Origin: Hysterangium stoloniferum | Taxonomy: Eukaryota > Basidiomycota > Agaricomycetes > Hysterangiales > Hysterangiaceae | Length of the DNA: 64,000 bases | Reading direction: 5' to 3' | NCBI GenBank assembly: GCA_015178975.1 | Contig: WHVD01000059.1 | Span: forward strand, 1-64,000 | In this document: positions 10,259 to 63,823 of the stretch, one piece after another | Numbering within the stretch: the first letter of the stretch is position 1 | Layout: each line of letters starts with the position of its first letter | The notes under the pieces: model-generated | Database searches by the model: none | What the model saw: only the letters and a program-made list of their open reading frames with translations | Told to the model about the DNA's origin: nothing | Program-made: the position numbers and the translations under genes

Positions 10259-10516
10259 GTATCCCCCTATTAGGTCAAGACCTTTCTAAAAAATGATATC
10301 TGGGTGCCTCATGCACTCACTTGGGTTAATATTTGCACCTATGCTTTTTAGTCAATGGGCACCTCTGGGAATATAAAAATTCAATCTTTTCAAAATTTTT
10401 ACTCAGAATCTCTCGACTTCCTTCCTTGCCCACCACACATTCTCAACCATTATTCCCAATGAGCCCCAGTAACAATGAGGACATGTGAGGGCTTTAACAA
10501 TGGCTTTGGGAGGCTG
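10259..10516 (+). promoter_or_regulatory. Polypurine tract remnant and putative start of an accessory gene
   Basis: Next to the family D LTR lies the complement of a polypurine tract (10259-10285). Further right are GGGAATATAAAAATTC (TATA-like, about 10368) and an ATG near 10458, followed by sequence that continues across the solo LTR 10517-11893 into the charged coding relic at 11894. This mirrors the opposite-strand gene of the F-type elements (43574-44734). Evidence is weaker here because the copy is decayed. Confidence 0.35.
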
Positions 10517-11893: not shown

Positions 11894-12158
11894 GGCTGAG
11901 GAGAAGAAGAGGATGCATGATGAGCAGGAGGCTGCTGAGTGGAAGACCAAGGAGGAGGGGGAACATTGGGCATTTTTAGCAGCAAGGTGGAAGGCTGTGG
12001 CTGAGTTGAGAAGTCATGAGAAGGGGAAGGGTAGGGCATCAGTAGAGCCTGTTAGGATCCCAGTCATTTGGTCCTGCAACTTTGTTTTACCTTCCCCACC
12101 CTCTGGCATCCTGCTATCAGTACCCCTGACTACAGTGCCACCACCTGTGGCACCCTGA
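11894..12158 (+). pseudogene. Relic of a charged accessory ORF (family D-type element)
   Basis: The open segment from 11913 translates as MHDEQEAAEWKTKEEGEHW and continues with Arg/Lys/Glu-rich sequence, like the N-terminal part of the opposite-strand gene seen at 15949 and 44525. From 12050 it runs into a family D LTR fragment, so the last residues are LTR sequence. Short and decayed; it is assigned by resemblance only. Confidence 0.4.
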
Positions 12159-15948: not shown

Positions 15949-16335
15949 GACCCAAATGGGACCAAAACCCATGCCTCAAAAGCCAAATGCACCAGCTGGG
16001 GCCCTCCATGGGCAACACATACTGGGCCCCATTCTTGAGCAGTGTGAAGAACAGTGGTGGCAATGTGAGGAGGAGGAAAAGAGGGCCAGGGAGGAGGAGG
16101 AAGAGCTGGAAAAGGAGTATTGGGTGGTGTTTGCTGCAGAGAAGGTGGCAGAGGAGAAGAGAAAAGGGAAGAGGAGGCAGCCTGGGTTGCTGCAGAATGT
16201 GCCAAGGCATCCATGATGATTGTCACAGGTAGAGTAAGTATACATTTATTTTTAGAAGCCTTACTGACAGTCTCCCATTAGTGCAAAGCAGTAGAAGTGG
16301 AGTCAGAGTCCAAGGGGGTGTTAAGTTCCAAATGC

Positions 16336-18970: not shown

Positions 18971-20141
18971 TGACTATTTATTACATTACAAATAATCCCT
19001 TTTCCATTGTTCATTCATTGTGAATCAGTAAAGCATATTCACATAAACAAATACTGAGAATATCCTTGCAAGATCTTTAAGACTACATTAAGATCCTGAT
19101 AAGTTAGTATCACAGTAGACCTTGTAGGTTAGTGTAAATAGAGCATATATTAGCCAAATAGTGTTTTATTCTATATCTAATCTTTTGACCTGTTTATAAA
19201 TATTTTTACTGTTTGATAAATAGTATAAAATATATATAAACTAGCTAGTATTGAAGTTAAATCTAGCTTCGGAATTAGTAAATTGTTATTCTTATTTTAA
19301 TAGTTGTTGTCACAGAAAAAGAACAAGCTTGCACAAGCAGCTCTCAAAACCTTCTTTGCAAAGTAGGGTGCATATATTCAAGTAAACTCTTGACTTCAGG
19401 GGTTCTAAGTCTATTTAGGCTGCCACTGATTAATATCAAATACTTAAATTATTTTACCTTGCAGTGAATTGAGTATTTGCACATTTTGATAGAGCATTGG
19501 ACTCCTTTTTTGGAAAATAGTATTAAAATAAGGCTAATACATCACAAACAGGTTGATGTGTGGGTCCAGTGGAGTCCAATGATTGGTACATGAGACACAG
19601 TATCAGATATAGACAGGTTTGACATGTGTGGGTCCATAATGGGAGTGGGGTTCTATGCTCTGTTAGAGGGGTTCCAGGAGTCTGGTTGGAGTCCAGTGAT
19701 GGTCACAGAGAGTTGGGTATAAACAGGTTGATATGTGGGTCTAGCAGAGTCTGATAACTGGTACATGGACAGTGTCAGATATGGACAGGTTGACATGTGG
19801 GTCCAGCAGAGTCCAATGACTGGTGCATATAGGGTGATGTACAGGTCCCAGTGGGTACTCCAGTTCAAACTGTACCTTGGGTACAATATAGAGAGTTGGG
19901 TGCATATAGGGTGGGGTCCGGGTTCTGGCAGGTTTTCCGGTCCTAACAGGGGGAGCCAGAGACTCCTCAACAAAAGGTAAGTGGGTGGTCTGTGGGGATC
20001 TATATACTGAATAAAATGACAGAAGGTGTGGAGGTTCCCTCCAGCCTGGCTGGAGTCAAAAAATGACCCATGGTGTTCTGGTTGAAATGACCAGAATGTG
20101 GACTGCTTCCAGAAGTCCAGTCTGCTCATATCAAGATGCCA

Positions 20142-22016: not shown

Positions 22017-22171
22017 GGGGGGGGGGGGGGGGGGTTGGTCCTCCGCTGTACAGCCGGGCATCGGGGGAGGAACATTATGCAATAGACCTTTCTTCTCCCT
22101 TTATAATCACAGACATGCCTTCTCCCTTTATAATCACAGACATGCCTTCTCCCTTTATAATCACAGATATG
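22017..22171. repeat. Run of 18 G and three 27-bp repeats before the BVMO start
   Basis: There is an uninterrupted G run at 22017-22034. Three tandem copies of a 27-bp unit with core CTCCCTTTATAATCACAGA follow (about 22091-22171), the last ending 10 bp before the BVMO ATG. Copy 2 has a single related unit. The repeat keeps the upstream frame open, which produces an artificial N-terminal extension. Confidence 0.8.
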
Positions 22172-22180
22172 CCTCCTACT

Positions 22181-23900
22181 ATGAGCACCGAACTCGATGT
22201 TGTCGTTGTCGGCGCAGGTTTTTGTGGCCTGTACCAGCTCCTTAGCCTTCGCAAACGCGGGTACTCTGTCCAAGTTTACGAAACCGCACCGGACTTGGGA
22301 GGCACGTGGTACTGGAACTGCTACCCTGGTGCTCGTAGTGATTCGGAAGTTCCTATATACGAATATTCCCTAGAGGAGCTGTGGAAAGGGTGGAAATGGA
22401 CTGAACGATTCCCCTCCAGGAGCGAACTACGCGCCTATTTCGACTATGTAGATAAGACATTCGACGTTAGGCGAGATATCAAGTTCAACACCCGTGTCAC
22501 CGCGGCCGAGTTCAACACTACGACTGACCGTTGGGCCGTCACGACAAGCGACGGTAGGGTCGTTCACCCACGTTTTTTTATTCTATGCACAGGCTTCGCG
22601 TCCAAACCATACATCCCTCCATTCAAGGGCCTCGATACCTTCAGAGGCGTGTGTCACCATAGCGCTCTGTGGCCGCAGGAGGGTATTGACCTGACGGGAA
22701 AGCGAGTGGGAGTCGTGGGTACAGGTGCAAGCGGCATTCAGATCATCCAAGAATCCGCCGCCATAGCAAACCACCTCACCATATTCCAGCGCACTCCCAA
22801 CATGGCGCTTCCCCTGCGTCAACAAACTATAGACCAAACATCTGAATCAGATGCGAAAGATAACGGTGGCTATCAACGGGTCTTTGCATTTTGCAAGACG
22901 ACTTTCGCCGGGTTCGCTCTCGACCTGATCTACAAGAACACTTTCGATGTGAGTACCGAGGAACGTCGGGAAACATTTCATAGGCTCTGGGAAAAGGGCG
23001 GTTTCTGGTTCTGGCTGGGAACGTTCCAGGACATGTTCACAAACCAAGAGGCAAACGATCTTGCATATGCCTACTGGAAGGATAAGGTTCGGGCTCGTAT
23101 CAACGACCCCGTCAAACAGGAGATTCTCGCACCAACTTTTCCCCCTCATCCATTCGGCACCAAACGTCCTGCTTTAGAGCAAACCTATTATGAGGTGTAT
23201 AATCGTGATAATGTGGCCCTAATCAACATTACGGAGAACCCCATCGTCGAGGTTACGCCCAAAGGTGTTCTCACCCAGGACGGAGTCGAACACGAGCTCG
23301 ATGTTCTCGTCCTTGCGACTGGGTTCGATGCGGTGACCGGCAGTATGTCGCTCATCGATATCAAAGGGACAGATGGTACTATGTTGAAGGACAAGTGGGC
23401 CAAAGGACTGACCACTTACCTTGGTATGACGGTGGCGAAATACCCCAATATGTTCTTCCCGTATGGTCCGCAAGCTCCGACCAACTTTTGTAATGGTCCT
23501 ACTTGCGCGGTAAGTTCTAATATTTTTTTCGCATACCTCACCGAATCATAGCTTCATCACCTTGTCATAGGAACTCCAAGGTAACTGGGTCACAAACTGT
23601 ATTGACCACGCACGAGCCAACAACCTCACCCACGTGGAAGCCAAAGAGGATGCACAAAGTCGATGGGTGAAGATTGTCGGTGATACCTTCCAGACGCAGC
23701 TATTCACTAAAGCGAAGTCCTCGTACACCGGTGCGAATATCCCAGGCAAGGTGATCGAGTCTATGAATTTCACAGGAGGTCTTCCGTTTTATGATAAATA
23801 TATAAGGGAGGTCGCAGAGAAGGGGTATGTGGGATTTGTATTGAAGTCCGGGAATGAGGCGGAGGTTGCTTCTAACGGATATATTTTGCATCATGGATAA
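22181..23900 (+). CDS. Baeyer-Villiger monooxygenase, copy 1
   Basis: This is an FAD- and NADPH-dependent class B flavoprotein monooxygenase. The family inserts one oxygen of O2 next to a carbonyl, turning ketones into esters or lactones; the substrate is unknown. Two exons, 22181-23509 and 23571-23900, flank a 61-nt intron (GTAAGT...CATAG, phase 0), giving 552 residues, the usual BVMO size. Motifs: FAD-binding GAGFCG (11-16), GGTWYWNCYPGARSD (40-54, with the Asp of the active site), BVMO fingerprint FRGVCHHSALWP (154-165), NADP-binding GTGASG (180-185), catalytic Arg in GTKR (329). The C-terminal motif reads SYTGANIPGK with Ser494, where the second copy and family members such as PAMO and CHMO have Trp at the NADP site, so activity may be reduced. 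The ATG at 22181 is chosen because it sits 10 residues before the FAD motif and matches the only plausible start in copy 2. No signal peptide; probably cytosolic. Confidence 0.9.
23510..23570 (+). other. Intron of BVMO copy 1
   Basis: 61 nt, GTAAGT donor, CATAG acceptor, phase 0. The same position and length occur in copy 2 (62830-62890). Removing it joins NGPTCA to ELQG, which continues the BVMO C-terminal domain. Confidence 0.88.
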
Positions 23901-24395
23901 CTGGAAAAGTGTGTACTTCTATCTCAATATCAAAGGTCGGGATGCATGCCAGCGAACAACACAAATCAGACTGAAGGAGTGTGATAGAAAATAATGAAAG
24001 CGCGATTAAGAGAGAGCTCAAATAGTATGTTTTGTTATTGATTTATGTAATTCATTACGCTCTAATCTTACAATGCATAATGGACAATGGAATCGATGCT
24101 CATTATACTTGACATCTCCCGAGGCACAACACACTAGCGGCCGGGAGGAGAGCCCGCTGCCTCCATCTGAATAACTATACCGACTACCGGGAATGGGGAA
24201 TGAGACAATCGAGCACAAGACTCATTCGGACTCCCATGCACATAACATCTCACAATATTTGGTATGGATCGATATGTATATGTATCAACTACTAGATTAC
24301 GAATTCATGCTACAATATGTGGTTCACAAATACACAATGATGGTGGAAATATAACCCAGACGGCGGTATATCCAACAACTTCACAAACGTCAGCA
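23901..24395. other. 3' flank of BVMO copy 1
   Basis: Closely matched by 63203-63823 in the second copy. It contains GTGATAGAAAATAATG and other AT-rich words that may belong to the 3' UTR. Antisense ORFs here are similar in both copies only because the DNA is similar, and they show no family motif. Confidence 0.5.
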
Positions 24396-30347: not shown

Positions 30348-31036
30348 CATGGACCCTGCAGCTTCCAGATAGCATGCATGTGGTACACCCAGTATTTCAT
30401 GTCTCTATGCTAGAACTGTGTACTGCTAACACTATCCCAGACTCCGTGCAATCTCTGCCCCCTCCAGTCATTATTGACAGAGAACCCGAGTTTGAAATCT
30501 CACAAATTTTAGACTCAAAAATAGATAAGCCTTGACACACTTGTAAACTGCTTTACTTGGTCAAGTGGGTGGTTATGAGGGCACAGATGAAGAGACATCT
30601 TGGATTTTGGCCACAGAACTCAGGAATGCCATGGAGATTGTCACTGACATTCACACAGCTTACCCACTCAAACTGGGCCCATTATGCTCTCTCTAGCCAC
30701 ATTCTGCAGACCCCATGTATATGTTGGATTCACTTCATTTTTCCTTGTTGCCCTATATCTCTCTTTGCTTTCACAGGTTTCAGACTCGTCTGTTAAGTCT
30801 TAGTGGATCTTCCCATGGACTTTTTCACACTTTTATTTGAAAATTTAAAAAAAAAGAAATTTTCTTTTCACTCTACACTAATGGGGCTATGTTTTTGCCC
30901 ATTTTCATTAAATTCTTTTTGGAGCTCCACCAGCTCCTCGGCAACCCCAGACTCCTTCCCAGGCTCTGCAGAACTCCCACTCTGGGACTCCTTATACACA
31001 TATCCTCCATATATTCTGCCAAGAACTCCTGGAACC

Positions 31037-34390: not shown

Positions 34391-34991
34391 GGAGGCATTG
34401 AGTCAGAAGGCCATATTTTAGAGGATGCTAAAGAGGAAAAGAAGAAGGAAGAGGAGGAGGCAGTGCAGGTTGCTGTGGAGCTTGCCACAGCAGCCATGGA
34501 GAGGTACATTAACTTCTTTCTCTTTTTTCTGACTTCACTGACTGTTGCTTTCTAGTGCAAAGCAGTAGAAGTGAGTCTGAGTCTGAGGGGGAAGCTGAGA
34601 GCCCTCAAAAGGTAAGTGGCAGGTCCACAGGAATGTCCAAGACTGACCAAAACAACAGAAGTCAAAGAAAATGCTCCAGTATGTCTGGAGTTAAAAGACG
34701 ATCTGTGATGCACTGGATGCAATGACTGCAACACAGAGTACTACTGGAAGTCTGGGCAGGGGCTGGGCTGTTGGCCATGTGCACACCTCAAAGCAAGGTG
34801 CTCACTGGTTCACAAGCCCATGGGGTCCATGGTATGGGAAGTGGGTGGCTTGGCAGAAAGGCCTGGGGCCCTGGAGGAAACTTTGGGGTGGATAGTGATG
34901 GGCATAGAGGCCCAGAACCAGTTGATTGAAGAGATCAACTGGGTGCAAGGGACTATGGTGGAGAGTCTCCAGAGACTCTGTGGGGGGGTTC
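34391..34991 (+). pseudogene. Accessory-gene relic (copy 3), inverted with the block
   Basis: A charged KEEEEAVQVAVELATAAMER segment is followed by a GT-AG intron-like stretch (34504-34555, with a CTGAC branch-like word), then a cysteine cluster near 34690-34790 ending CAHLKARCS (34776-34802), as in element F. The 3' continuation on the opposite strand is at 30870-31036, separated by the family A LTR and the inversion. Fossil; function unknown. Confidence 0.6.
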
Positions 34992-37089: not shown

Positions 37090-37905
37090 TGTTACGACTG
37101 GAAAAACCGCCCAGACTCTGGGCACTAACTTATATGCACCCGTGCCCTCTACGCACCCATTATCAGTTAACGGAATTCCCACCATACTCCGTATGTCAGA
37201 TTCATCTATGTTCATCTTCGTTATGTTGTGTTTCAGTCACCGGAATACTCACTGGACTCCATCTCTGTCTATTTCTGACCTTGTCCCACGTGTCAGTCAC
37301 TGGACCCCCACTCAGAAAACCCGTCACCTCTCTAACAGAGCCCCGTTCCTGTTTTAGTCAAATGACCTGTCACAATTTGGACTCCGCTCCCGCTCCATTT
37401 CCCATTATGGTTTATGATTTGTCACTATTCAGACTCCGCTCCATTCTGTCCTGTTCCTAACACCAATTTGGTGTTTACTATTCCCGTTTTATGTTTTGCT
37501 CATTTTGTTTCATCATTACTGGATTCAGTATGACATTCACTCCATGGTCTATTTAAACTGGCAGATGTTGTACATACAATCCAGTCAGAAAATCAGCTTA
37601 GATTCCCCCCAGTAATCTAATACATTTTCTGCTCTAAACTCCTACTTGAATTACACCGCTCACACTAGTCGGAGCCCACGGGCTCTGGCGTATCTATCTC
37701 TCTCACCTATCTTGACTCATGACCCACGACCTCCGACCTACAACCCCTCAACCCACGACCCCCACCCGGACTCCCCAGGATTCCTGTCTGCCTGTCTGAA
37801 ATTGGACAACATGATCTAGCGAGGGTGCAGCCTAAAAGCTGAAGCCAAGTCCTACCGGATATTCCACGGGTTTCTCTGGAGACCCGCCCTGTACGTATCC
37901 TAACA
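37090..37905 (+). repeat. 5' LTR of element F
   Basis: 816 bp, TGTTACGACTGG...GTATCCTAACA. It contains TTTGGTGTTTACTATTCCCG and, near the 3' end, the shared box AAGCTGAAGCCAAGTCCTAC (37838-37857). Confidence 0.92.
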
Positions 37906-37941: not shown

Positions 37942-39852
37942 ATGCCACCCAGAAAGAAAGTGAATGCACAGGCATCATTACCTGGACTGTCGACTCTTCA
38001 TTCCCCATTAACTTTGTATACCAGTCAGATGCTTGCGAACCAGTTGGAACCCATGGAAGAAGCCCATATCGAAGAAGTCCCAGAAAACCAGGATGAATCC
38101 GCGCACGAGGACAAATCCGTGCATGAGGACAAATCTGCGCATGAGGACAAATCCACGCACGAGGACAAATCCACGCACGAGGACAAATCCGCGCACGGGG
38201 ACAAATCTGCGCACGGGAACGAATCCGCGCACAAGGACAAATCCGCGCAAGAGGACGAATCCACGCACGAGGACGAATCCACGCACGAGGACAAATCCAC
38301 GCACGAGGACAAATCCACGCACGAGGACGAATCCACGCACGAGGACAAATCCACGCACGAGGACAAATCCACGCACGAGGACAAATCCACGCACGAGGAC
38401 GAATCCACGCACGAGGACAAATCCACGCACGAGGACAAATCCACGCACGAGGACAAATCCACGCATGAGGACGAATCCACGCACGAGGACAAATCCACGC
38501 ACGAGGACAAATCCACGCACGAGGACAAATCCACGCACGAGGACGAATCCACGCACGAGGACGAATCCACGCACGAGGACGAATCCACGCACGAGGACGA
38601 ATCCACGCACGAGGACGAATCCACGCACGAGGATGAATCCACGCACGAGGACGAATCCACGCACGAGGACGAATCCACGCACGAGGACGAATCCACGCAC
38701 GAGGACGAATCCACGCACGAGGACGAATCCGCACACGAGGATGAATCCGTGGCCCCCGACAAGGGCAAAGGTGTCGAAATTCCTCCACCTATCGAACGAC
38801 TGCACTTGGGGGACCCTACTTCTGAATTTTTAGCAGGTACTATAGATACATTCATGACGCACCTGTTCGAAGAACAAAAGAAAAAGGAACAAGAACCTCC
38901 ATGGTCAAAAGTCAATGCTCTGGAACCCTTCACGGGTTCCAACCCAAACAAACTCTCTACTTTCCTCATGCAATGTCACTTCAATTTCCGTGATCGATCC
39001 GCTGCATTCTCCATGGACTCCTGAAAAGTCAACTACACACTTTCATACTTGTCGGGATCCGCGTTGAAATGGTTCGAACCGGCTTTTAGCAGAATTTCCG
39101 AGGAAGAGCCACTTTGGCTCGAAAATTGGGATGCTTCTGTTGAGGAGCTTGAAACCAACTTTGGCCTGTATGACCCAACAGGATTAGCTGAGAACAGTCT
39201 CACAAATCTTTGTATGAAGGACACGCAGTGCATAACAGACTACATTGTCCAATTCAATAATCTTGCAGCTCGTTGTCAGTGGGGCCATCCTGCTCTCTGC
39301 CACCAATTCTATGCCGGTCTGCCATCCCGCCTTAAAGATGAAGTCTCAAAAGGAGAAGATGGCAAGCCAAAAACCCTGTCCCATATGTGCCTCAAAGCTC
39401 AAAATGCAGATGCACATTATTGGGAATGTCACACAGAAGTTGCCTGCGAGACTTCCGTGGACAAAGTAAACAAGTCCACAGCCAATAAAACCAACAACAA
39501 CAACTCGTCAACCAGCAACCAAAACTCCACGCAATCTGACAAGAAGAACGATAAAAAGTCTTCTAACAACAACAACAACAACAACAACAAGGACAATAAC
39601 AAGGGTCAACAGTCCGGCCAGCAAGCCAGAAAACCTGACCTCTCAGGCAAACTCGGACCTGATGGCAAATTGTTCCCACAGGAAAGACAATGTCGTATGG
39701 ACAATAACCTCTGTCTCTTGTGTGGGAAACCCAGTCATCGAGTCCCGGAATGTCCGCTGGCAAAAGCAAACTCTGCAAAGGGTCGAACAGCCAAGACCTC
39801 CACGGAAACCCTGTCGAAGGACAAACTGGCTTCTGACTCGAAAAAAGAGTGA
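37942..39852 (+). CDS. Gag region of element F with CCHC zinc knuckle
   Basis: The region encodes the structural protein of the virus-like particle. The N-terminal part (MPPRKKVNAQASLPGL) leads into a hexapeptide repeat array (see the minisatellite). A retrotransposon Gag core follows (SGSALKWFEPAFSRI, LARCQWG, YAGLPSRLKDEV), then an Asn/Ser/Lys-rich linker with a poly-Asn run. Near the C terminus is a zinc knuckle of CX2CX4HX4C form (CLLCGKPSHRVPEC, about 39712-39753), used for RNA packaging in this family. Part of a broken fossil. Confidence 0.82.
38092..38739 (+). repeat. 18-bp minisatellite in gag, about 36 units
   Basis: The unit is GAGGACAAATCCACGCAC with A/G variation, coding the acidic hexapeptide DKSTHE or DESTHE. 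Units 14-25 show a higher-order period of four (one DE unit then three DK units, three times), and the last ten are all DESTHE. Because 18 is a multiple of three, most reading frames on both strands stay open across it. Confidence 0.95.
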
Positions 39853-40058: not shown

Positions 40059-43000
40059 TTGTCAACTTATCCAATAAATCCAGCTAACAGTATAACATTC
40101 CAGACCCCCACGGCAGCCGAGGAAACTGCACCCATCCCGGCCTTCACGGCACCCATGGCCTTCCTGGCACCTGCAGTCTTGAGGACTCTTGTAATCCCTA
40201 CAACACCTATGGCTTCCCCAGAACCCACGGCACCTCCATCTATTTCTCTGATTAATGCTGCAGCTTTTATTAGGACTTCAAAAATGGACAGGTCCCAGGC
40301 ATTCACTATCAACTTAAAAATTGATGAAGCAACTGGACATTTTTCAACTCCGGTATCTGAATCTGAGCAAGCTGCTGACCTAGAAGGCATCCTGGAGAAA
40401 TATCATGACTTCGTGGATGTTTTTAGCAAGCAAAAAGCTGACCAGCTTCCGCCCCACAGAGAATACGACTTAAAAATCGATCTCGAAGACAGCACCCAGC
40501 CACCCCTAGGACATATTTATCTGCTCTGGTCCATGGAACTTTCCACAATCTGCAATTTCCTGGATGAACATTTGTCCATAGGTTTTATCAGACCCTCAAA
40601 GTCTCCTTTTAAAGCACCTGTTCTGTTTGTCATAAAAAAGGATGGATCCCTTCGACTATGTGTTGATTTTAGAGGACTCAATGCTGTCACCAAAAAGGAT
40701 AAATATCCACTCCCACTTATATCTGATCTGCTCGATGCTCCACAGAATGCCCAGATTTACACCAAAATAGATCTCAAACATGCCTATCACTTGGTCTGGA
40801 TAGCCGTGGGCAACAAATGGAAAACCACTTTTAGAACCCGCTATGGGGCCTTCGAGTGGTTGGTGATGCCCTTTGGACTCACCAATTGCTCCATCTGTTT
40901 TTCAGTGTTTTATCAATGACATTTTCTCCAACATGCTCGATGTATGCATTATTGTTTACTTGGATGACATTCTTATCTACTCCGAGAATCCTGCGGAACA
41001 TGACAAACAAGTCTGTGAAGTTCTCCAGAGACTCAGACAATATGGTTTATTCGCAAATGGGAAAAATGTACTTTTGACACGGACTCTGTGGAATACCTGG
41101 GTTTCATGATGGGACCCGATGGACTCCGCATGGACAAAACTAAAGTGCAAGTCATCAAAGATTGGCCTGAACCCCGAAAAGTTAAATATATACAATCCTT
41201 CCTCGGCTTTGCCAATTTTTACAGATGGTTTATCCATGGATATTCCGACATCACGGTACCCCTTACCCATCTTACACATAAGGATACTCCATGGAATTTT
41301 AATGATAAGTGTCAAAAAGCTTTCAATCTTTTAAAAAATTCTTTTTCTTCAGCTCCTATTCTGTCACATTGGAAACTGGACTTCCTGCTCATTGTTGAAA
41401 CGGACACCTCGGACTATGCACTTGGAGCCATTCTGTCTATCCAGGACTCTGATGGAGAAGTCCACCCCGTGGCTTTTCTATCCCGGACTTTTACTGGAGC
41501 AGAGCTCAACTACAACATTCATGATAAGGAACTCCTGGCAATTCTTTCAGCTTTCAAAGCATGGTGACACTATTTGGAAGGCTCGGGAACTCCTATTGAT
41601 GTTGTAACAGATCACAAAAACCTGGAATACTTTTCTACCACAAAACCTTTGACCCACTGGCAGGCCCACTGGTCTGAATATCTATCTGCCTTCAACATGA
41701 TTATCCATTTTCGACCTGGCCGTCTTGGGGGCAAACCTGACGCTTTAACTAGATGATGGGACATCTATCCTAAAGAGGGGAGCAACGACTATGCCATGGT
41801 AAACCCGCACAACCTGAAACCTATTTTCACGAATCAGCAACTTACCGCATCAGTCCATGCAACTTTCCTCATCAATCCCATTGTCTGTGGAATTATCATT
41901 ATGGATGTTGAGAAGTTACATCAAGATATTCTATTGGCAATTCCACTAGACCCGATTACTAAAGCTCACCTTGACAATCCCATGGACCCTGGTCAACCCC
42001 GGTGGTCTCTTGATCAACATGGTTTCATTAGACTTGACAATCGAATCTATGTACCGGACTCCAATGGCCTCCACCTCAGGATCCTTCAATACAAACATGA
42101 TCATCCACTCTCAGGACATTTCAGGTACAACAAAACTCTATCATTAATAAGAAGAGAATATACTTGGCCCAGACTTCATGGATTCATTAAGCACTATTGC
42201 AAATCTTGCACTACTTGTCCCCACTCGAAATCTCAGTGACACAAGCCATACAGCCTTTTGAAACAACTCCCGGTACCGGAACACCCATGGAATTCTATCT
42301 CTATGGATTTCATTGAACACCTACCAGATTCCAAAGGCTTTTCTGCCATTCTAGTCGTTGTTGACAGATTCTCAAAACAAGGTATATTCATCCCTACATA
42401 TGACACAATTACTTCCGTGCAGTTAGCGGAACTTTTCATTATCCACATATTTTCCAAGCATGGAGTTCCATCCCATGTGACTTCTGATCGAGGATCAGAG
42501 TTCATATCTCACTTCTTTAGATCCCTCAGGAAATCCTTGGACATGACATTACATTTCACATCCGGACATCACCCGGAAGGCGACAGACAAACCAAACGCG
42601 TCAACCAGACATTGGAACAATATCTCTGCATATATTGCAATTACCAACAGGACAATTGGAAATCCTTGTTACCACTTGCAGAGTTTGCTTACAACAATGC
42701 ACCCTCGGCCACTACTGGCATTTCCCTGTTCTTTGCAAATAAAGGATATAATCCAAATATTACAGTACATCCAGAATGAAATCTCGCCTCTGCTCATGCT
42801 CAAGAGTTCACCATGGACCTCCACGAGCTCCACGAGGAACTCCAGACTGCAATACTGTCTGCCCAAGAGCAATATCAACATTCAGTGGACAAACACCAGA
42901 TCCCACCACCAAACTTCAAGATTGGCGATCGTGTTTTTGTCAAAGCTCAATTCTTCCAGACTACCTGTCCATCAAAAAAGCTTGCTGAAAAATATTTAGG

Positions 43001-43472
43001 TCCATTTGAAATTATCGCACAAGTAGGATCAGTCTCTTGGACCCTACGGCTTCCGGATAGCATGTGTGCGGTACACCTGGTATTTCATGTTTCTATGTTA
43101 GAACCTTGTACTGCTAACACTATCCCGGATCGTGTGCAATCTCCGCCTCCTCTGGTCATTATTGACGGAGAACCTGAGTTTGAAATCTCGCAAATTTTAG
43201 ATTCGAAAATTGACAAGCGTCGACACACTTGTAAACTGCTTTACTTGGTCAAGTGGGTGGGTTATGAGGGCACCGATGAAGAAACCTCATGGATTTTGGC
43301 CACAGAACTCAGTAATGCATGGATATCATTACTGACTTTCATACAGCTTACCCACTCAAACCTGGACCACTATCGTCTCTCTGACTGCACTCCGTGGACC
43401 CCATGTTATGTTTGGACTCATTTTCATTATTCCCTGTCACCCTATGTCTCTCTTTGCTTTTACAGGTTCTGA
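40059..43472 (+). CDS. Pol region of element F (RT, RNase H, integrase, chromodomain)
   Basis: RT spans about 40400-41250 ([20 protein letters not shown], then [12 protein letters not shown] with the catalytic YLDD at about 40957). RNase H is about 41290-41760 ([23 protein letters not shown]). Integrase starts with a zinc-binding part ([11 protein letters not shown] ... [11 protein letters not shown], about 42110-42230) and continues with the core ([47 protein letters not shown]). The C-terminal chromodomain lies at about 43170-43330 ([20 protein letters not shown]). The protease motif lies just upstream, near 40000. Broken fossil. Confidence 0.88.
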
Positions 43473-43573: not shown

Positions 43574-44525
43574 TCAATCTACATTTATGGGGCTATGCTT
43601 CTGCCCAACCTCAGCCATCTCCTGAGGAAGCTCCGCTACCTCCATGGGCACCCCATCCTCATCCAATCCGGCATCCTCAGAACTCCTGGCTTGTGGCTCC
43701 CCATAGATATATCCACCAAACTCCACTAAGAACTTCCAAAATTCCGAGCGGAGCCCACAGAGCTCATTCACCACCACAACTTGGACCTTGTTGCTTCTTC
43801 GGAGCAACTCGTTCTGGGCCACTATGCCCTCGGCAATCCACCCCAACATGTCATCCAACCCAGACAACCCATCTGTCCCACTAATGTCCCGTGCCCTGGA
43901 TCCCATGGGTTGCTCGTGGATGAGCGAGCACCTTGCCTTGAGGTGTGCACATTGGTAGCACCCAGTCCCCACCCAGACTTTCGATTGCATTCTGTGTTCC
44001 GGTCATTGCAACTGGAACACCATGGATCATTCCGCATTGGAAGACAGACTGGTGCCGCCTTCCTTGCCTTCTGTTGATATGGTTAGTTTCTATGGCTATC
44101 CCACAGACCCGAGGCTTACCTTCTGGGGGCTCTCTGGCTCCCCCTCAGACTCTCTGTCACCTTGCGCTGAAAATAACAAGTCAGTAAAAAGAAAAATGAC
44201 AAGTTAAGTTGGGACTTACTTTTCCCGTGACTACCGCAGCCCTGTCTGCAGCCACCTGTGCTTTCTCCGTGGCCACCCACACAGCCTCCTCCTCTTCTCG
44301 TTTCTTCTCCCTCGCAGCCTCTTCCTCCGTGGCCAATGCCACCTCATACTCCCTGTCCAAAGCCTCCTTGGCCTCCCTGGCCTCCTTCTCTGCTTCTTCA
44401 CAAAGTCGGTGCTGCTCTTCTCGCCGCACCAAAAGTTGGGCTGCACTCCAAGGCACCCAATATGGAGTGCCTGTGGAGGGCCCAGCAGTTGGCATTGCCT
44501 GTCTTGGTGTTGGTTTTGGTCCCAT
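43574..44525 (-). pseudogene. Opposite-strand accessory gene of chromovirus F
   Basis: The gene runs toward pol from beside the 3' LTR. The N-terminal exon (44525 downward) begins MGPKPTPRQAMPTAGPSTG and continues as a Glu/Ala/Arg/Lys-rich, probably coiled-coil helix (REAKEALDREYEVALATEEE). A GT-AG intron (44219-44167, 53 nt, CTGAC branch word) follows. Further on are cysteine clusters WCSSC (about 44022) and CYQCAHLKARCS (about 43926-43961), then a leucine-rich acidic tail (LVEFGGYIYGE). The paired CxxC groups suggest zinc binding, perhaps DNA or RNA binding, but I recognise no named family. Homologous relics at 15949, 30870/34391 and perhaps 11894. The copy is part of a broken fossil; I do not assert a full product. 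Confidence 0.6.
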
Positions 44526-44734
44526 TATATCGAAGATGGGGTAATAAAGAAGAAGAAATTTCTATTTTTTCAAATTTATATATAGGCTCATCGCATTTGA
44601 ACCTTACCTTCCAGATCACATGACTCTTTGACACATACATGTAACTGACATGACCTTTGACACATGCACGTAGCTGACAAGAACCTTATCGAGGTCTAGA
44701 GCCTCTTTGGGACTTCGGCATAAAGGGAGGGTAC
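44526..44734 (-). promoter_or_regulatory. Promoter of the opposite-strand accessory gene
   Basis: It lies between the accessory-gene ATG (44525) and the 3' LTR (44735). On the - strand it holds GAGCCTATATATAAATTTG (TATA-like, about 44573-44590), roughly 50 bp before the ATG. Upstream is a doubled unit related to TCAGTTACATGTATGTGTCA. The same layout is at 15786-15948. Confidence 0.55.
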
Positions 44735-45534
44735 TGTTACGACTGGAAATTTCGCCTGGACTCCGGGCACTAACTTATACACACCTGTGCCCTATACGCA
44801 CCCATTATCAGTTACCAGAATTCCCACTGGACTCTGTATGTCAGACTTGTCTACATTCATCTTCATTATGTTGTGTTTCAGTCACTGGAATACTCACCAG
44901 ACTCCGTCTCTGTCTATTTCTGACCTTGTCCTGCATGTCAGTCACCAGACCCCACTCAGAAAACCCATCACCTCTCTAACAGAGCCTTGTTCCCATTTTA
45001 GTCAAATGACCTGTTACGATTTGGACTCCACTCCCACTCCATTTCCTGTTATGGTTTATGATTTGTCACGATTCAGACTCCACTCCATTCTGTCCCGTTC
45101 CTAACACCAATTTGGTGTTTACTATTCCCGTTTTATGTTTTGCTCATTTTGTTTCATCATTACTGGATTTGGTATGACATTCACTCCACAGTCTATTTAA
45201 ACTGGCAGATGTTGTACATACAATCCAGTCAGAAAATCAGCTTAGATTCCCCCCAGTAATCTAATACATTTTCCGCTCTAAACTCCTACTTGAATTACAC
45301 TGCTCACACTAGTTGGAGCCCACAGGCTCCGGCACATCTATCTCTCTCACCTATCTCAACTCACGACCCATGACCTCTGACCTACGACCCCCGCCCAGAC
45401 TCCCCAGGATTCCCGTCCGCCTGTCTGAAATTGGACAACATGATCTAGTGAGGGCACAGCCTATAAGCTGAAGCCAACTCCTACTGGATATTCCGCAGGT
45501 TTCTCCGGAGACCCGCCCTATACATATCCTAACA
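44735..45534 (+). repeat. 3' LTR of element F
   Basis: 800 bp, TGTTACGACTGG...CATATCCTAACA, preceded by the polypurine tract AAAGGGAGGGTAC. Differences from the 5' LTR are mostly transitions at former CpG sites. Confidence 0.92.
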
Positions 45535-52668: not shown

Positions 52669-54447
52669 TTAACGAAGGCCTAAGAAATTACGAAGATGAA
52701 GGAATTTCGACGGCTCTAAAGCTTTGGTAAAGATGTCAGCGATATTGTTTTTAGTGTTGATATAGTGTAAGGAAAAATCCCCAGCATGAACACGTTCACG
52801 AAGGAAGTGGTACTTGATATCAATATGTTTGACTCGAGAGTGCAGAAGGGGGTCTTCAGATAAAGTGATGGCAGCATTATTATCGCAAAAGATGGTTGTG
52901 GAGTCCGTGCAAGGGAAATTAATTCCAGTGAATAATGCTCGGAGCCAGCTACCTTCCTTGACAGTTTCAAATGCAGCGACGTATTCAGCTTCGCAAGAAG
53001 AAGCAGCAACGGTTTTCTGTTTCTTTGTTGTCCATGAAATAAGACCCGATCCTAAAGTGAAGGCATAACCACTAATGCTGCGTCTGGTGTCAAGACAATT
53101 CACCCAATCGGAATCAGTATATCCAGTAAGTTTAATACTGTTTGAACTGCCCAGGCAGAGTTGAAGGTTCCTCGTGCCTTTCAGATAGCGAACAACACGA
53201 ATAGCAGCGGTCCAATGAAGTGTGCAATAGCTGTCAAGGAATTGTGACAACTGTTGAACAGCATAGGCGATATCAGGACGTGTGGAAATGGCCAAGTAAA
53301 GTAGGCACCCAACGAGCGATCGATAGGGTATTTTGAGTAGATCATTGGTTTCGATGGGAGATAGGGAGGTACGGTCAAAGCGATGAAGTTTAAGGTTGTG
53401 ATCCATGGGTGTAGAAATGGTAGAGGAAGTGCTTTGGCCGAATTGTCGCACGATTCTGTCAATCAGGGCAGTCTGGGAGAGATATACAGAGTTATTTGGT
53501 CGATCCCATACCACTGCAATGCCGACGACGAAACTGACAGAGCCAAGCTCTGAAATTGTCCACACATGACGCATTTGATCCTTGAAGAGATTATTCTCGG
53601 TGGGAGTACTGGCAATAGAAAGAAAGTCGTCAACATGTACGGCAGCGATAATAATACCAGTGGTCGTTCGTCGATAATAGATGCAAGATTCACAGGTAAG
53701 CCGGGTGAAGCCCCAGGCCAGCATCTGCTCATTCATCGTTTGATTCCATATTCTGCCACTTTGCTTCATACCGTAAAGGCCTCGGACTATCATCCATACG
53801 TAATCCTCTTTCCCTGGTTCCTCAAATCCTTCAGGTTGTGTCATAAACTGTACTTCGTCATCAGGAAGAAGGCCATAGAGAAAAGCGGTCTTGATGTCAA
53901 TCTGCTGTGCATCCCAACCAAGAGTAGCTGCGATATGGAGTAAGATACGCCAGGATTCCATGTGTGCTGTTGGTGAGGTCGTTTTATGATAATCTTTACC
54001 ATAAACTTGCTCAAAACCTTTAAAGACCAACCGTACTTTCCACCGAACTGCTCTACCAGATTCATCCCGTTTGATTCGAAAGACAGGGCGCCCCTTTCTA
54101 ATCTTGCAACCCTGGGGAACATCGGAACGGGGAACTAGTTTGTAAACCCCCATCTGTTTGAGTGAGTCTAACTCCTCCTGGTATCCAGCTCGCCATCGAT
54201 TAGCATCACCCGAATGGAGGGCTTCAGCCCAAGTCTGCGGTTCGTCATTGCATGTTAATGGGTCAATGCCCAGTGTGTCGGGCATAGTTGCAAAACCGAG
54301 ATGTGTGTCCAGTAGATCTGTATCTATTGGGAGAGATGATAAAATATTTTTTAGTTCATCAGAATCTATGGTAGGTGGTGATGACGCAATAGTAGCAGTG
54401 TGTAATTCATTGATAGCATTTGATCGTTCATGTCGTTGTAACCGCAA
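52669..54447 (-). CDS. Copia reverse transcriptase and RNase H region
   Basis: 592 residues are open. RT is recognisable from YKLVPRSDVPQGCKIRKGRP, QIDIKTAFLYGLLPDDEVQF, GLYGMKQSGRIWNQTMNEQM and the catalytic HVDDFLSIAS (near 260). RNase H follows with LTGYTDSDWVNCLDTRRSIS, SSCEAEYVA, FCDNNAAITL and HIDIKYHFLRE. The end INTKNNIADIFTKAL is typical of copia. It lies just inside the 3' LTR. Confidence 0.94.
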   Translation of the reverse strand: MRLQRHERSNAINELHTATIASSPPTIDSDELKNILSSLPIDTDLLDTHLGFATMPDTLGIDPLTCNDEPQTWAEALHSGDANRWRAGYQEELDSLKQMGVYKLVPRSDVPQGCKIRKGRPVFRIKRDESGRAVRWKVRLVFKGFEQVYGKDYHKTTSPTAHMESWRILLHIAATLGWDAQQIDIKTAFLYGLLPDDEVQFMTQPEGFEEPGKEDYVWMIVRGLYGMKQSGRIWNQTMNEQMLAWGFTRLTCESCIYYRRTTTGIIIAAVHVDDFLSIASTPTENNLFKDQMRHVWTISELGSVSFVVGIAVVWDRPNNSVYLSQTALIDRIVRQFGQSTSSTISTPMDHNLKLHRFDRTSLSPIETNDLLKIPYRSLVGCLLYLAISTRPDIAYAVQQLSQFLDSYCTLHWTAAIRVVRYLKGTRNLQLCLGSSNSIKLTGYTDSDWVNCLDTRRSISGYAFTLGSGLISWTTKKQKTVAASSCEAEYVAAFETVKEGSWLRALFTGINFPCTDSTTIFCDNNAAITLSEDPLLHSRVKHIDIKYHFLRERVHAGDFSLHYINTKNNIADIFTKALEPSKFLHLRNFLGLR

Positions 54448-54843
54448 TCGTTCAGCGCTGTCCCTAGACTCCTGAATGGCATGGTCAAGTCTGGAAGTTG
54501 AGGCAGGTTGTCCAGCAGTGGTTCGAGTGGACCGTCGAAGTGATGTGTCTGGTAATTCATTGGGTATCTCGATGTCAGATGGTTCCTGTAATGGAATGAT
54601 TGCAGGGGAAGAATCGGAAAGCTCAGTAGGGGTACCATGGGAGTAGTGTTCACCAGATAAAGGGAGTGGTTCCGAGTAGTCATTAGATTGGGTAGTAGAA
54701 TCGTTCGTGGTGGTTCGCGGATGGCCATCATGACTTTCAAGAAATCGGACATGATATGAGCTATATATTAGTCGCGTTTTTGGGTCGTAGCATCTATATG
54801 TCTTAGACTTATCATCATATCCGATAAGAATACACTCAATTGA

Positions 54844-57216
54844 TCACTCGTAAATCTTAGGGTTTGTCCAATTTTGGATTAAGACAAAGGCTCGACAACC
54901 AATTTCCCGTAGGTAAGAGTAGTCTGGTTTGCGACCATACCATAGTTCCCAAGGTGTTTTATCTATCAGTGATTTGGTAGTAGTTTTGACATGTAGATGA
55001 GTAGCAGTGAGGTAGAATTCGTCCCATAAGTGTGCAGGTAATCCTGCATAAATACGCATGGTTCTGGCTTTGGCCATCAAAGTGCGATGTAGTCGTTCTA
55101 CTCGTCCGATATGTGCTGATGTATATGGAGCTGTAAACTGATGATTGGTACCCCTAGATGCTAACCAATTAGTCATTTCATGACTTTTGAGCTCTCCATT
55201 GTCAGTACGATAAGTGCCGACTTTTAATCCAGTCTCAACTTCCCGTGTACGTTCCCAAATTTGAAGTTGCGACAATGCGTCACCTTTTAATTTGAGTGGG
55301 ATGGTCCAGCAAAAACTTGAAAAATCGTCCACAATATTCATAACATAATTATTTCCAGTTCGTGAGGTGACAGGATTAGGCCCAGATAAGTCTATCCACA
55401 CTTTTTCCAATTTTCTCGTTGCCCTGTGTCCCACTCCCTCCACTCGTGTTTTGGGAACAGAAGATTTGGTCTGTTTGCCCAGAATACAGGAGTCGCATTT
55501 AGTGGGAGTGGTGGAAGAGTTGGTGGGTGTCGCACCTTCAATAAAACCATTATTGAACATATCGCGAATAGCCTGAAAATTTGCATGACCGAGTCGACGA
55601 TGCCATGTCTCAATGGTGGGTGTGCGGTGAGTTAGAAATGCATGCTCGGCTTGTGCAGAATGGATATGTAGTGAGTATAAATGTTTCTGTGGGAGCAGGT
55701 CGCCTCTGGCAATGATTGTTCCAGACGATTTTGTGGTGAGCCAACAAGATGTATGATCGAAGTGTGCGATAACATTTGAATCCCCTGTAAGGCATCGAAT
55801 TGAGATCAGTCGCACGGTGGCATCTGGGATATAGAGGACATTTTGTAGGATCAAATGTGAGCCACGACCGATTCGAAGTTTGATATCCCCAATACCTATT
55901 GCCCATACAGAGGAACCACCCAAACCTTTGACAGAGCGAGGGGTGACAGCGTTCAAAGTCAAGAAATCATCACGATTAGGGGATATGTGGACAGAGGCAC
56001 CACTGTCCATCCAAAATGGGTGCGAGTCAGTGGAAATGGGTGTTCTGTTAGATTGGGATATGGCATTGATATCAGTGGTGTTAATGGCAGCCATTGTAGA
56101 TTGGCTGTGTTTGGACCAGTCTAAATTAGTTATTAACTCCTCCTCAATGACGAGCCACCCATCATATTCGACAGTATCAGGCAGCGACATAGAAGATGTG
56201 GCAATGGTAGTAGAGGATGGGATAGCCAAATTGGCAACAGGGGGTTCCGAAGAGGAAAAGTCTGATGATGCCATGTTGATGATGTAGACACGACCATCTG
56301 CACCTTGCAATTTAATAGGGATTTTCGGTGCAGTGGAGGTAGGAGTAATGAGGTTGGCAGGTGGGGCAGTGGAAGTACCCGATTTTGAACTGCGGGCAAG
56401 GCGTCGTGCCTGTTTGGATTCTTCCAGAGTTTTTCCCGCCATGCCCCCACCAGGTCGGATACAGAATTCAGCCTCATGATAATTGCGTTTGCAGTTTGAG
56501 CAAATCACAGAGGCAGGTTTCGAAGGATGTTGGGCAGACATGGCGATCGACTCAGCAGGTTGCACCTTGTCAGAGTTGAGGAGGTTCTGTTCATTATCCA
56601 AATACCCACAGAATTGAGTGGATGTGAAGGGGTTGGAGTCAGTAGACATAGAGATATCACGAGTGATGATGGATCGGATGTTCCCAAAATCATTGTCAAG
56701 GGAGCCTAAAAGGGCAATACACTTCAGGAGATCTTTAGAAATAGTACCCATATCATAAGCACGATCAATGAGGGAACAAATCTTCTCAGCTGTTACTGGT
56801 AAAGGGGTAGAACGAACACAACGGGTGGTGAGAGCCTCCTGTAATAGTTGTACTTGGCGAATAGGCCCCTCACTTTGATGGCATTGTCGAATGGTTTCCC
56901 AGCAGGCCTTTGCACCTAGTTTTCGGTCAAGGTATTCCTGTTCAGTCGTTTCGACAGTTGATGCAATGAGTGCTGCGGCCAGGGAGTTATTAGCCAACCA
57001 GTTAGTTTTTGCACGGGGTTCAGTAGTACTGGGTTCGGGGATGGTGCCATCGACATAACCAGAGAGGCCAGTGAGGGTAAGAAAAAGATCTGCGGCGCGA
57101 AGCCAAGGACGATAGTTGGATTTAAGTTTGTCAAGTTTAGGTCCAGTATAAGTGATATTGGTACGGATAAGGGTTATAGAGGGTGCAAGGGCATCCGTAG
57201 AAGTAGGAGTAGTCAT
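54844..57216 (-). CDS. Copia Gag, protease and integrase region
   Basis: The Gag part (LDKLKSNYRPWLRAADLFLT, EYLDRKLGAKACWETIRQCH) fits the copia Gag family. A zinc knuckle CSNCKRNYHEAEFC lies near residue 236. The protease active site is MDSGASVHIS near 403. The integrase zinc-binding part is WHRRLGHANFQAIRD with CDSCILGKQ. The core holds VWIDLSGP (Asp), TYRTDNGELKS (Asp) and SAHIGRVERLHRTLMAKART (Glu). The products would form the particle and insert cDNA. 790 residues are open in this copy. Confidence 0.92.
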   Translation of the reverse strand: MTTPTSTDALAPSITLIRTNITYTGPKLDKLKSNYRPWLRAADLFLTLTGLSGYVDGTIPEPSTTEPRAKTNWLANNSLAAALIASTVETTEQEYLDRKLGAKACWETIRQCHQSEGPIRQVQLLQEALTTRCVRSTPLPVTAEKICSLIDRAYDMGTISKDLLKCIALLGSLDNDFGNIRSIITRDISMSTDSNPFTSTQFCGYLDNEQNLLNSDKVQPAESIAMSAQHPSKPASVICSNCKRNYHEAEFCIRPGGGMAGKTLEESKQARRLARSSKSGTSTAPPANLITPTSTAPKIPIKLQGADGRVYIINMASSDFSSSEPPVANLAIPSSTTIATSSMSLPDTVEYDGWLVIEEELITNLDWSKHSQSTMAAINTTDINAISQSNRTPISTDSHPFWMDSGASVHISPNRDDFLTLNAVTPRSVKGLGGSSVWAIGIGDIKLRIGRGSHLILQNVLYIPDATVRLISIRCLTGDSNVIAHFDHTSCWLTTKSSGTIIARGDLLPQKHLYSLHIHSAQAEHAFLTHRTPTIETWHRRLGHANFQAIRDMFNNGFIEGATPTNSSTTPTKCDSCILGKQTKSSVPKTRVEGVGHRATRKLEKVWIDLSGPNPVTSRTGNNYVMNIVDDFSSFCWTIPLKLKGDALSQLQIWERTREVETGLKVGTYRTDNGELKSHEMTNWLASRGTNHQFTAPYTSAHIGRVERLHRTLMAKARTMRIYAGLPAHLWDEFYLTATHLHVKTTTKSLIDKTPWELWYGRKPDYSYLREIGCRAFVLIQNWTNPKIYE

Positions 57217-61408: not shown

Positions 61409-61500
61409 ATGACCCGCTGTACAGCCGGGCTTCGGGTGAAGAACATCATGCAATAGCTTTCTCTTCTCTCTTCATAGTAACAGACATACCTCCTAGACCT

Positions 61501-63202
61501 ATGAGCACCGAACTCGATGTTGTCGTTGTCGGCGCAGGTTTTGGTGGCCTGTACCAGCTCCTTAGCCTTCGCAAACGCGGGTACTCTGTCCAAGTTTACG
61601 AAACCGCACCGGACTTGGGAGGCACGTGGTACTGGAACTGCTACCCTGGTGCTCGTTGTGATTCGGACGTTCCTATATACGAATATTCCCTAGAGGAGCT
61701 GTGGAAAGGGTGGAAGTGGACTGAACGATTCCCCTCCAGAAGCGAACTACGCGCCTATTTCGACTATGTAGATAAGACATTCGACGTTAGGCGAGATATC
61801 AAGTTCAACACCCGTGTCACCGCGGCCGAGTTCAACACTACGACTGACCGTTGGGCCGTCACGACAAGCGATGGTCGTGTCGTTCACCCACGTTTTTTTA
61901 TTCTATGCACAGGCTTCGCGTCCAAACCATACACCCCTCCAATCAAGGGCCTCGATACCTTCAGAGGCGTGTCTCACCATAGCGCTCTGTGGCCGCAGGA
62001 GGATATTGATCTGACGGGAAAGCGAGTGGGAGTCGTGGGTACAGGTGCAAGCGGCGTTCAGATCATCCAAGAATCCGCCGCCATAACAAACCACCTCACC
62101 GTATTCCAACGCACTCCCAACATAGCGCTTCCCATGGGTCAGCACACTATAGACCAAACATCTGAATCAGATGCGAAAGATAACGGTGGCTATCAACGGG
62201 TCTTTGCATTTCGCAAGACGACTTTCGCTGGGTTCGCTTTAGACCTGATCGACAAGAACACTTCCGATGTGAATACCGAGGAACGTCGGGAGACATTTGA
62301 CAGGCTCTGGGAAAAGGGCGGTTTTTGGTTCTGGCTGGGAACATTCCAGGACATGTACACAAACCAAGAGGCAAACGATCTTGCATATGCCTATTGGAAA
62401 GATAAGGTTCGGGCGCGTATCAACGACCCCGTCAAACAGGAGATTCTCGCACCAACTCTTCCCCCTCATCCATTCGGCACCAAACGTCCTGCTTTAGAGC
62501 AAGCTTATTATGAAGTGTATAATCGTGATAATGTCGCACTAATCAACATCACGGAGAACCCCATCGTCGAGGTTACGCCCAAGGGTATTCTCACCCAGGA
62601 CGGCGTCGAACACGAGCTCGATGTTCTCGTCCTTGCGACTGGGTTCGATGCGGTGACCGGCAGCATGTCGCTCATCGATATCAAAGGAACAGATGGTACC
62701 ATGCTGAAAGACAAGTGGGCCAAAGGACTGACCACTTACCTTGGTATGACGGTGGCGAAGTACCCCAATATGTTCTTCTCGTATGGTGCGCAAGCTCCGA
62801 CCGCCTTTTGTAATGGTCCTACTTGCACAGTAAGTTATAAGATTTTATTCGTATACCTCACCGAATCATAGCCCCATCACCTTGTCATAGGAACTCCAAG
62901 GTGACTGGATCACAAACTGTATTGACTACGCACGAGCCAACAACCTCACCCACGTGGAAGCCAAAGAGGATGCACAAAGTCAATGGGTGAAGATCGTCGG
63001 TGATATTTTCCAGACACAGCTATTTAGTAAAGCGAAGTCTTGGTACACCGGTGCGAATATCCCAGGCAAGGTGGTCGAGTCCATGAATTTCACAGGAGGT
63101 CTTCCGCTTTATGATAAACATATAAGGGAGGTCGCAGAGAAGGGGTATGTGGGATTTGTATTGAAGTCCGGGAATGAGGCGGAGGTTGCTTTTAACGGAT
63201 AG
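61501..63202 (+). CDS. Baeyer-Villiger monooxygenase, copy 2
   Basis: It is a paralogue of 22181-23900. Exons 61501-62829 and 62891-63202 flank a 61-nt intron at the identical phase 0 site, giving 546 residues. Motifs: GAGFGG (11-16), GGTWYWNCYPGARCD (40-54), the BVMO fingerprint FRGVSHHSALWP (154-165), GTGASG (180-185), GTKR (329), and SWYTGANIPGK with Trp494 present. GARCD and the Trp are closer to characterised family members than in copy 1, so this copy is the more likely active enzyme. The C terminus ends at AFNG; copy 1 runs six residues further because its next codon is Tyr (TAT) rather than a stop (TAG). It is convergent with the gene at 63824-64000, a possible small metabolic pair. 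Substrate unknown; no signal peptide or membrane segment seen. Confidence 0.92.
62830..62890 (+). other. Intron of BVMO copy 2
   Basis: 61 nt, GTAAGT donor and CATAG acceptor, phase 0, matching copy 1 in place and length. Confidence 0.88.
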
Positions 63203-63823
63203 ATTTTGCATCATGGGTAACCGGAAAAGTGTGTACTTTTATGTGGGTCAATATCAAAGGTCGGGATTGCATGCCAGCGAACAACACAAATCAGACTGAA
63301 AAAGTGTGATAGAAAATATTGAAAGCGCGATTAAGAAAGAGCTCAAGTAGTATGTTTTTGTTATTGATTTACGTAATTCATTACGCTCTAATCTTACAAT
63401 GCATAATGGACAATGGAATCGATGCTCATCATATTTGACATCTCCCGAGCACAACACACTAGTAGTCGGGAGGAGAGCCGCGGCCGCCATCTGAATGACT
63501 GTACTGACTACCGGGAATGGGGAATGAGACAATCAAGCCTGGGGAGAGGTGACGGAAAGGAAAATTGTCAACAATGCCGGCGTAACAGGTACTAACAGCG
63601 AAATAATCAACGACCCTCAGATCTCAGACCCGGGCTCATTCGGACTCTCATGCACATAGCATCTCACAATATTCAGTATGGATCGATATATTTATCAACT
63701 ACTATATTACGAATCAATGCTACGATATGGGGTTTTCAAATACATGTAATCACGACAAATACACAATGATGGTGCAAATATAATCCAGACGGCAGTATAT
63801 CCAACAACTTCACAACGTCAGCA
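63203..63823. other. Convergent intergenic region
   Basis: About 620 bp between the BVMO stop and the stop of the - strand gene. Homologous to 23901-24395 apart from an extra stretch of roughly 80 bp near 63541-63625, which copy 1 lacks. Confidence 0.5.

Follow-up and report, generated by a model that had tools for sequence, protein, structure and literature searches.

An antisense, intron-bearing gene with a zinc-cluster-like motif between pol and the 3' long terminal repeat of a chromovirus lineage in Hysterangium stoloniferum

Several long terminal repeat (LTR) retrotransposons carry an additional antisense open reading frame (ORF) between pol and the 3' LTR, as described for the plant elements Grande, RIRE2 and Retand and for Boty of Botrytis (PMC7264820, PMC11963269, PMC8365987), and the function of such accessory genes is described as unknown in PMC7264820. 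According to the same source, gene23 of maize Grande has its own promoter and encodes a nuclear protein, while for the TRP28 protein of Retand a DNA-binding domain has been predicted and a part in regulation suggested (PMC11963269). Among fungi, brtn of Boty, from Botrytis cinerea, is an additional antisense gene of an LTR element by the title of Zhao et al. 2011, cited in PMC8365987, and Boty is named among the elements with an antisense ORF in PMC7264820. Here we describe a gene of this kind in the basidiomycete Hysterangium stoloniferum, located in a stretch of 64,000 nucleotides (contig WHVD01000059.1, positions 1 to 64,000; hereafter the window) on the antisense strand of element F, a Ty3-type LTR retrotransposon with a chromodomain. 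The first-pass annotation of the window, made from its letters alone, knew of no named family for such a gene, a claim that the plant and Botrytis precedents overturn for the kind of gene.

The locus shares with the plant genes, termed aORF-3R (Grande, RIRE2, Retand), the antisense ORF and its site between pol and the 3' LTR, and differs from them in its fungal host, its chromovirus setting, a six-cysteine zinc-cluster-like motif, two conserved introns and the lack of a TRP28 match. The main text of the Retand paper does not contain the word “intron” (PMC11963269), whereas two introns are present here. Boty brtn, by that title also a fungal antisense gene, has an ascomycete host. A search of open-licence literature listed no antisense gene with introns or a zinc cluster in any fungal retrotransposon, and, as far as our searches show, the fungal chromovirus setting, the two conserved introns, the zinc-cluster-like protein and the intact copies in recent insertions are new relative to that literature.

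Element F has the LTRs, the gag gene, the order of reverse transcriptase, RNase H and integrase, and the chromodomain at the end of pol that define a chromovirus. Two features mark the copy in the window as old, an identity of 88.7% between the two LTRs and a gag-pol region split among several ORFs. Its antisense gene runs on the reverse strand from an ATG at 44525 to a stop codon at 43574-43576 and lies between pol and the 3' LTR (Table 1), in the place first proposed for it. The MGPKP start, the doubled ATGTGTC unit, the TATA-like box, the charged helix, and the CxxC and CYQC..KARC cysteine clusters are all present as annotated. This copy cannot encode the full protein, because exon 2 is short (47 nt) and the frame shifts within the cysteine cluster, between the codons of the third and fourth cysteines.

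Relatives of the gene are spread across the genome of the same fungus (111 Mb in 554 contigs), which also has 18 hydrophobin matches, in keeping with a fungal source. A DNA search with the antisense gene scored 41 matches among 927 first-look candidates, and an exon-3 protein search scored 150 of 1139 candidates, with a stop-free matched stretch in 115 of the 150 matches listed. The first-pass annotation would have given the gene up for want, among other things, of homologues outside the window or of purifying selection among copies; homologues do lie outside the window, beside other LTRs, and the selection is described below. One identical score is common to 22 of the 150 listed exon-3 matches, a pattern expected of a recent burst. 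Separately, 30 of these 150 start less than 6 kb from a contig start, where about 4.5 would be expected under an even spread, an excess that may arise where the assembly broke at young repeats or from preferential placement near chromosome ends. A viral contig collection yielded no confirmed relative of the antisense gene.

We fetched 60 gene loci (L001-L060), chosen by gene similarity, such that elements without the gene fall outside the sample; the loci are not all independent, since L020-L022 and L024-L026 duplicate one another almost exactly. In 56/60 loci, pol is followed by the antisense gene and then an LTR, the four exceptions being L005 and L031, without an LTR match beside the gene, and L037 and L039, without a pol match. 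An alignment of 57 copies, with three short ones omitted, revealed that the conserved GT-AG intron of about 50 nt originally described is indeed conserved but is one of two, with GT-AG borders retained in 55/57 and 56/57 copies and lengths of 48-58 nt (intron 1) and 47-53 nt (intron 2). Compared with the introns, the exons hardly vary in length. Exon 1 has two common lengths, 306 and 327, which are 21 nt apart, and one copy has 369, differences that correspond to whole 7-residue repeats of the charged helix. The spliced frame is uninterrupted, at 288-298 aa, in 15 of the 57 aligned copies.

The antisense gene is protein-coding and under purifying selection (omega about 0.2). The tests used transversions only, because CpG decay had to be avoided, and distinguished, in 30 non-redundant copies, changes shared by at least two copies from changes private to one. 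Over codon positions 1:2:3, shared transversions are distributed 23:17:67 and private ones 35:40:26. For the whole gene, 49 shared transversions are synonymous and 58 non-synonymous, where 16.6% synonymous would be expected (p 1.8e-12, omega 0.24), against 15 and 86 among the private ones (omega 1.14). Shared changes are thus constrained and private changes look neutral, and selection therefore acted while the elements propagated and not after insertion, in agreement with the past selection that the first-pass annotation had proposed. In a comparison drawn from the same copies, omega was 0.20 for the gene (42 copies) and 0.14 for the last 660 bp of pol (43 copies), and the pairwise ratio of non-synonymous to synonymous rates (dN/dS) over 45 pairs of 10 intact copies had a median of 0.20 (range 0.14-0.40).

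A six-frame control located the strong bias solely in the frame of the antisense gene (exon 1, 26/30, p 7.8e-7; exon 3, 21/26, p 4.2e-6). Two observations speak for coding on the opposite strand: in exon 3 the pol-sense mirror frame shows a weak bias (18/29, p 2.2e-3), and the copy L033 has a pol-sense frame of 327 codons without a stop opposite the antisense gene. The weak bias is expected, because third positions coincide in the two frames, and the mirror frame of exon 3 is stop-free in 0/30 copies. The pol-sense ORF was rejected as the true gene, as the other intact copy tested, L027, has 1-7 stops in each pol-sense frame and the six-frame test favours the antisense frame.

The same data bear on two explanations in which the protein would have no role for the element. 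The functional product could be an antisense RNA, forming double-stranded RNA or interfering with sense transcription, with the frame being incidental, an idea raised for plant elements (PMC7264820) and one to which the overlap with the sense RNA and the existence of Piwi-domain genes would lend themselves. A translated product is favoured by selection at the codon level in exons 1 and 3, by the fixed lengths of the exons, by invariant cysteines and by length changes in units of seven codons, and frame-specific selection largely refutes RNA as the sole explanation, making it very improbable as such, while the RNA may act in addition. Alternatively, the gene could be a passively carried captured host gene, whose introns would suit capture as DNA, or else an artefact due to the size of the repeat family. 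Purifying selection on shared branches, neutral change after insertion and occurrence in diverged families leave this option scarcely credible.

Some copies are young. In the two intact copies checked, the LTR pairs are identical (821/821 bases) and the insertions are flanked by 5-bp target duplications, GCTGA and CAGCT; the identity of these LTR pairs indicates recent movement of gene-bearing elements. Meanwhile, the ratio of observed to expected CpG is 0.52 in frame-broken copies versus 0.96 in intact ones, and the change from CGA to TGA accounts for 32/64 in-frame stops in 35 decayed copies, so that the loss of CpG in broken copies matches what methylation-driven decay would do. The genome also contains two cytosine-methylase matches, as well as Piwi-domain matches.

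It is from this decay that the main rival to a transcriptional role draws its appeal, namely that the protein binds noncoding DNA of the element and lifts or prevents CpG methylation or heterochromatin. The model for such counter-silencing is provided by the VANC proteins of Arabidopsis VANDAL transposons, which are element-encoded and proposed to act on their own noncoding DNA (PMC10398659). Heavy CpG loss in old copies makes methylation-like silencing a plausible pressure, the cytosine-methylase and Piwi matches fit it, and a self-encoded, sequence-specific DNA binder would follow VANC logic (PMC10398659). Still, CpG loss alone is no proof of a protein opposing it, and searches of Pfam and the PDB found no sequence relation of the product to any named family; both it and VANC are proteins of mobile elements with their own noncoding DNA as the proposed target, a likeness without sequence relation. 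We regard counter-silencing as unlikely.

The preferred reading, in which the product regulates transcription of its own element, draws on the layout of the protein. The product (about 288-298 aa) comprises a charged helix with heptads, a basic PQKKARK stretch, a six-cysteine motif, a linker and a stretch with many helix-forming residues. The six cysteines are kept in 56, 56, 57, 57, 57 and 56 of the 57 copies, and the histidine H180 in all 57. Zn(II)2Cys6 clusters follow the rule C-x2-C-x6-C-x(5-12)-C-x2-C-x(6-8)-C, and the spacing observed here, 2-6-9-2-6, conforms to it. The likeness to Gal4-type Zn(II)2Cys6 proteins (PF00172) consists of this exact spacing and of the helical region that follows the cluster, whereas most of the basic residues (KAR) fall in the second half here and in the first half in Gal4. 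A protein of the Zn(II)2Cys6 type would bind two zinc ions and CGG-type DNA.

Upstream of the gene, a 209-nt region that reaches the edge of the LTR is clearly constrained, with a mean identity of 0.963 over 36 pairs of intact copies, a value above those of the introns (0.808), the exons (0.881) and the 3' part of pol (0.951). Its conservation suggests that it may be the gene's own promoter; the polypurine tract may account for some of the constraint. Inside the four intact-copy LTRs listed, no 7-mer is more frequent than GGAGTCC (gene strand), and the arrangement CGG-N3-CCG occurs 5, 3, 3 and 3 times in the LTRs of L052, L046, L059 and L047, where shuffles give an expectation of 0.43, 0.29, 0.30 and 0.28, respectively, being the top arrangement in three of the four. 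Counted along the sense strand of the LTR of L052, the sites lie at 26, 99, 169, 344 and 594, with a TATA-like box at 464, which places 4/5 candidate sites upstream of the box; such a box is found at 463-466 in 4/7 LTRs. In five control LTRs, neither strand carries the CpG-decay-tolerant motif, a weak control, as four of them belong to one LTR family and all are CpG-poor. We treat the CGG-N3-CCG arrangements in U3 as candidate sites for the protein, an unproven lead.

A number of results weigh against a zinc-cluster protein with targets in U3. A Pfam scan of two intact proteins gave no match to Zn_clus (PF00172) at E<=1, and the 83 Zn_clus matches scored genome-wide (E<=10) all fall outside the listed places of the gene family, as compared by eye. 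AlphaFold2, given the exon-3 ORF of the window alone, returned a model with a mean predicted local distance difference test score (pLDDT) of 39.9, which was left unused. On the side of the targets, CGG-N3-CCG comes second to the N5 spacing in L047, conservation of the GGACTCC sites does not significantly exceed that of the remaining LTR sequence (p 0.09, 9 LTRs), and the excess of CGG-N3-CCG was drawn from related LTRs with 78 arrangements scanned. Other searches were also negative: the same Pfam scan at E<=1 detected neither TRP28 (PF04195) nor any other domain, a PDB sequence search had no match at E<=1, and a profile of five sequences against the PDB gave three weak matches (E 0.19-0.48) on the helical N-terminal half, taken as chance. 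Because Pfam Zn_clus and PDB matches are lacking, we label the motif “zinc-cluster-like” and do not count the protein as a member of the family. As a separate observation, two Zn_clus matches stand in a row in open frames, about 15-25 bp apart, at C56:39585-39800, C115:74835-75050, C85:76115-76324 and C309:4792-5007, which may represent a doubled zinc-cluster family.

Set together with the position of the gene, its structure, the intact young copies, the purifying selection and the invariant cysteines, all directly observed, these features suggest the following scheme. A chromodomain-bearing Ty3-type lineage carries a third protein gene, antisense, between pol and the 3' LTR, which would be transcribed from the promoter-like region that abuts the polypurine tract, after which two short introns would be removed. 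The introns persist through retrotransposition because they are oriented against the genomic RNA and hence are not spliced from it. The product would then enter the nucleus, dimerise and bind DNA, most likely acting on the U3 of its own LTRs, with CGG-N3-CCG as the candidate site, and on the repeats upstream of its own gene, thereby tuning sense transcription. On balance, we lean towards this chain as a whole, in which the antisense gene of a chromovirus lineage encodes a nuclear DNA-binding regulator of its own element. A stricter version, a self-contained circuit made of a zinc-cluster transcription factor, matching CGG-N3-CCG operators in U3 and repeats of the antisense promoter, acting in trans on all copies, is possible but doubtful. 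The first-pass annotation had offered a zinc-binding regulator or a counter-defence protein, and either role would be inferred rather than observed here as well.

The product could instead help the replication cycle, in nuclear import, particle assembly or the choice of integration site, with no part in transcription. Its retention by transposition-competent lineages under constraint close to that of pol would accord with such a helper, and a basic stretch together with a zinc-cluster-like motif could bind nucleic acid. A separate antisense promoter, however, would uncouple its expression from that of Gag-Pol, and the conserved 5' region suggests separate regulation, which makes a helper improbable.

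If it tunes sense transcription, the product would be a fungal analogue of HBZ of human T-cell leukaemia virus (HTLV) or would have the role proposed for plant antisense ORFs. HBZ is spliced and is a basic leucine zipper (bZIP) protein, whereas the gene here encodes a cysteine cluster. The shared ground is that HBZ of HTLV-1, too, is encoded antisense close to the 3' terminus of its retroelement, with a nuclear product and a role in the virus life cycle (PMC11963269). The antisense promoter of HTLV lies inside the 3' LTR (PMC7264820), while the promoter-like region described here lies outside it.

The window also holds diverged relatives of the gene (Table 1). The relics proposed earlier around 15-20 kb and 30-35 kb proved homologous by tblastn, while a possible further one, at 10259-12049, was matched by neither of two intact proteins in tblastn (E<=0.1) and remains unsupported. 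Both diverged relatives have copies elsewhere in the genome (48 and 50 matches), and LTR-like and pol matches stand on the expected sides in 4/6 second-family loci examined.

Table 1. Coordinates in the window of element F, its antisense gene and the relics of related genes.
Feature	Position	Strand	Evidence or remark
Gene relic, diverged family (exon 1 and start of exon 2)	15956..16329	+	tblastn E 5e-15
Gene relic, cysteine-cluster part	19947..20118	+	tblastn E 2e-4
Second-family relic, C-terminus of the gene at 34421-34984, split off by inserted sequence	30871..31011	-	tblastn E 1e-7
Second-family relic (end of exon 1 to linker)	34421..34984	+	tblastn E 7e-27; 48 DNA matches in genome
5' LTR of element F	37090..37905	+	Direct repeat with 44735-45534, 88.7% identity
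gag ORF of element F	39049..39852	+	Retrotrans_gag E 5.6e-9
pol fragments (reverse transcriptase, RNase H, integrase)	40059..42779	+	Separate ORFs: RVT_1 3e-13, RT_RNaseH_2 1.2e-28, Integrase_H2C2 9.6e-17, rve 6e-12
3' end of pol with chromodomain (last pol ORF)	42813..43472	+	SH3_Tf2-1 5.9e-19, Chromo 2.2e-6
Exon 3 (cysteine cluster, linker, C-terminal helices, stop codon)	43574..44070	-	Frame-broken in window copy
Six-cysteine cluster	43928..44019	-	C-x2-C-x6-C-x9-C-x2-C-x6-C in intact relatives; split by frame change in window copy
Intron 2, 49 nt, GTAAGC...AACAG, CTAAC branch-like motif	44071..44119	-	GT-AG in 56/57 copies
Exon 2, 47 nt in window copy	44120..44166	-	57 nt in 54/57 copies
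Intron 1, 53 nt, GTAAGT...TTTCAG, CTGAC branch-like motif	44167..44219	-	GT-AG in 55/57 copies
Exon 1 (MGPKP start, charged helix, 7-residue repeats)	44220..44525	-	Multiple of 3 in 53/57 copies
Conserved 5' (promoter-like) region, LTR edge to ATG, 209 nt	44526..44734	-	
TATA-like box, 50-59 nt 5' of ATG	44575..44584	-	
Two tandem unit copies (29 and 30 nt) holding ATGTGTCAAA	44618..44676	-	
Polypurine tract of element F, TAAAGGGAGGGTAC	44721..44734	+	Sequence; pyrimidines on gene strand
3' LTR of element F	44735..45534	+	Direct repeat partner of 37090-37905

Among other features of the window, the internal region of element F opens with a long array of 18-bp tandem repeats (37961-38782; 35 overlapping register copies listed), which lies within a frame of 360 aa that is free of stops and has an LED_rpt match below threshold. 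A Copia-type element on the reverse strand (52669-57216), with long open gag-pol frames of 592 and 790 aa, stands beside the old gypsy copies, and a flavin monooxygenase-like gene is present in two copies, 94% identical, at 22146-24214 and 61463-63538.

In this chromovirus lineage, the conserved antisense introns reveal the strand of the functional transcript. The combination of many intact copies, two recent insertions, frame-specific selection, a cysteine motif and candidate targets makes the function of the gene directly testable. Should the product prove to be a transcription factor or an anti-silencing factor encoded by the element itself, it would parallel HBZ or VANC in a fungus and offer a way into how fungal retrotransposons burst.
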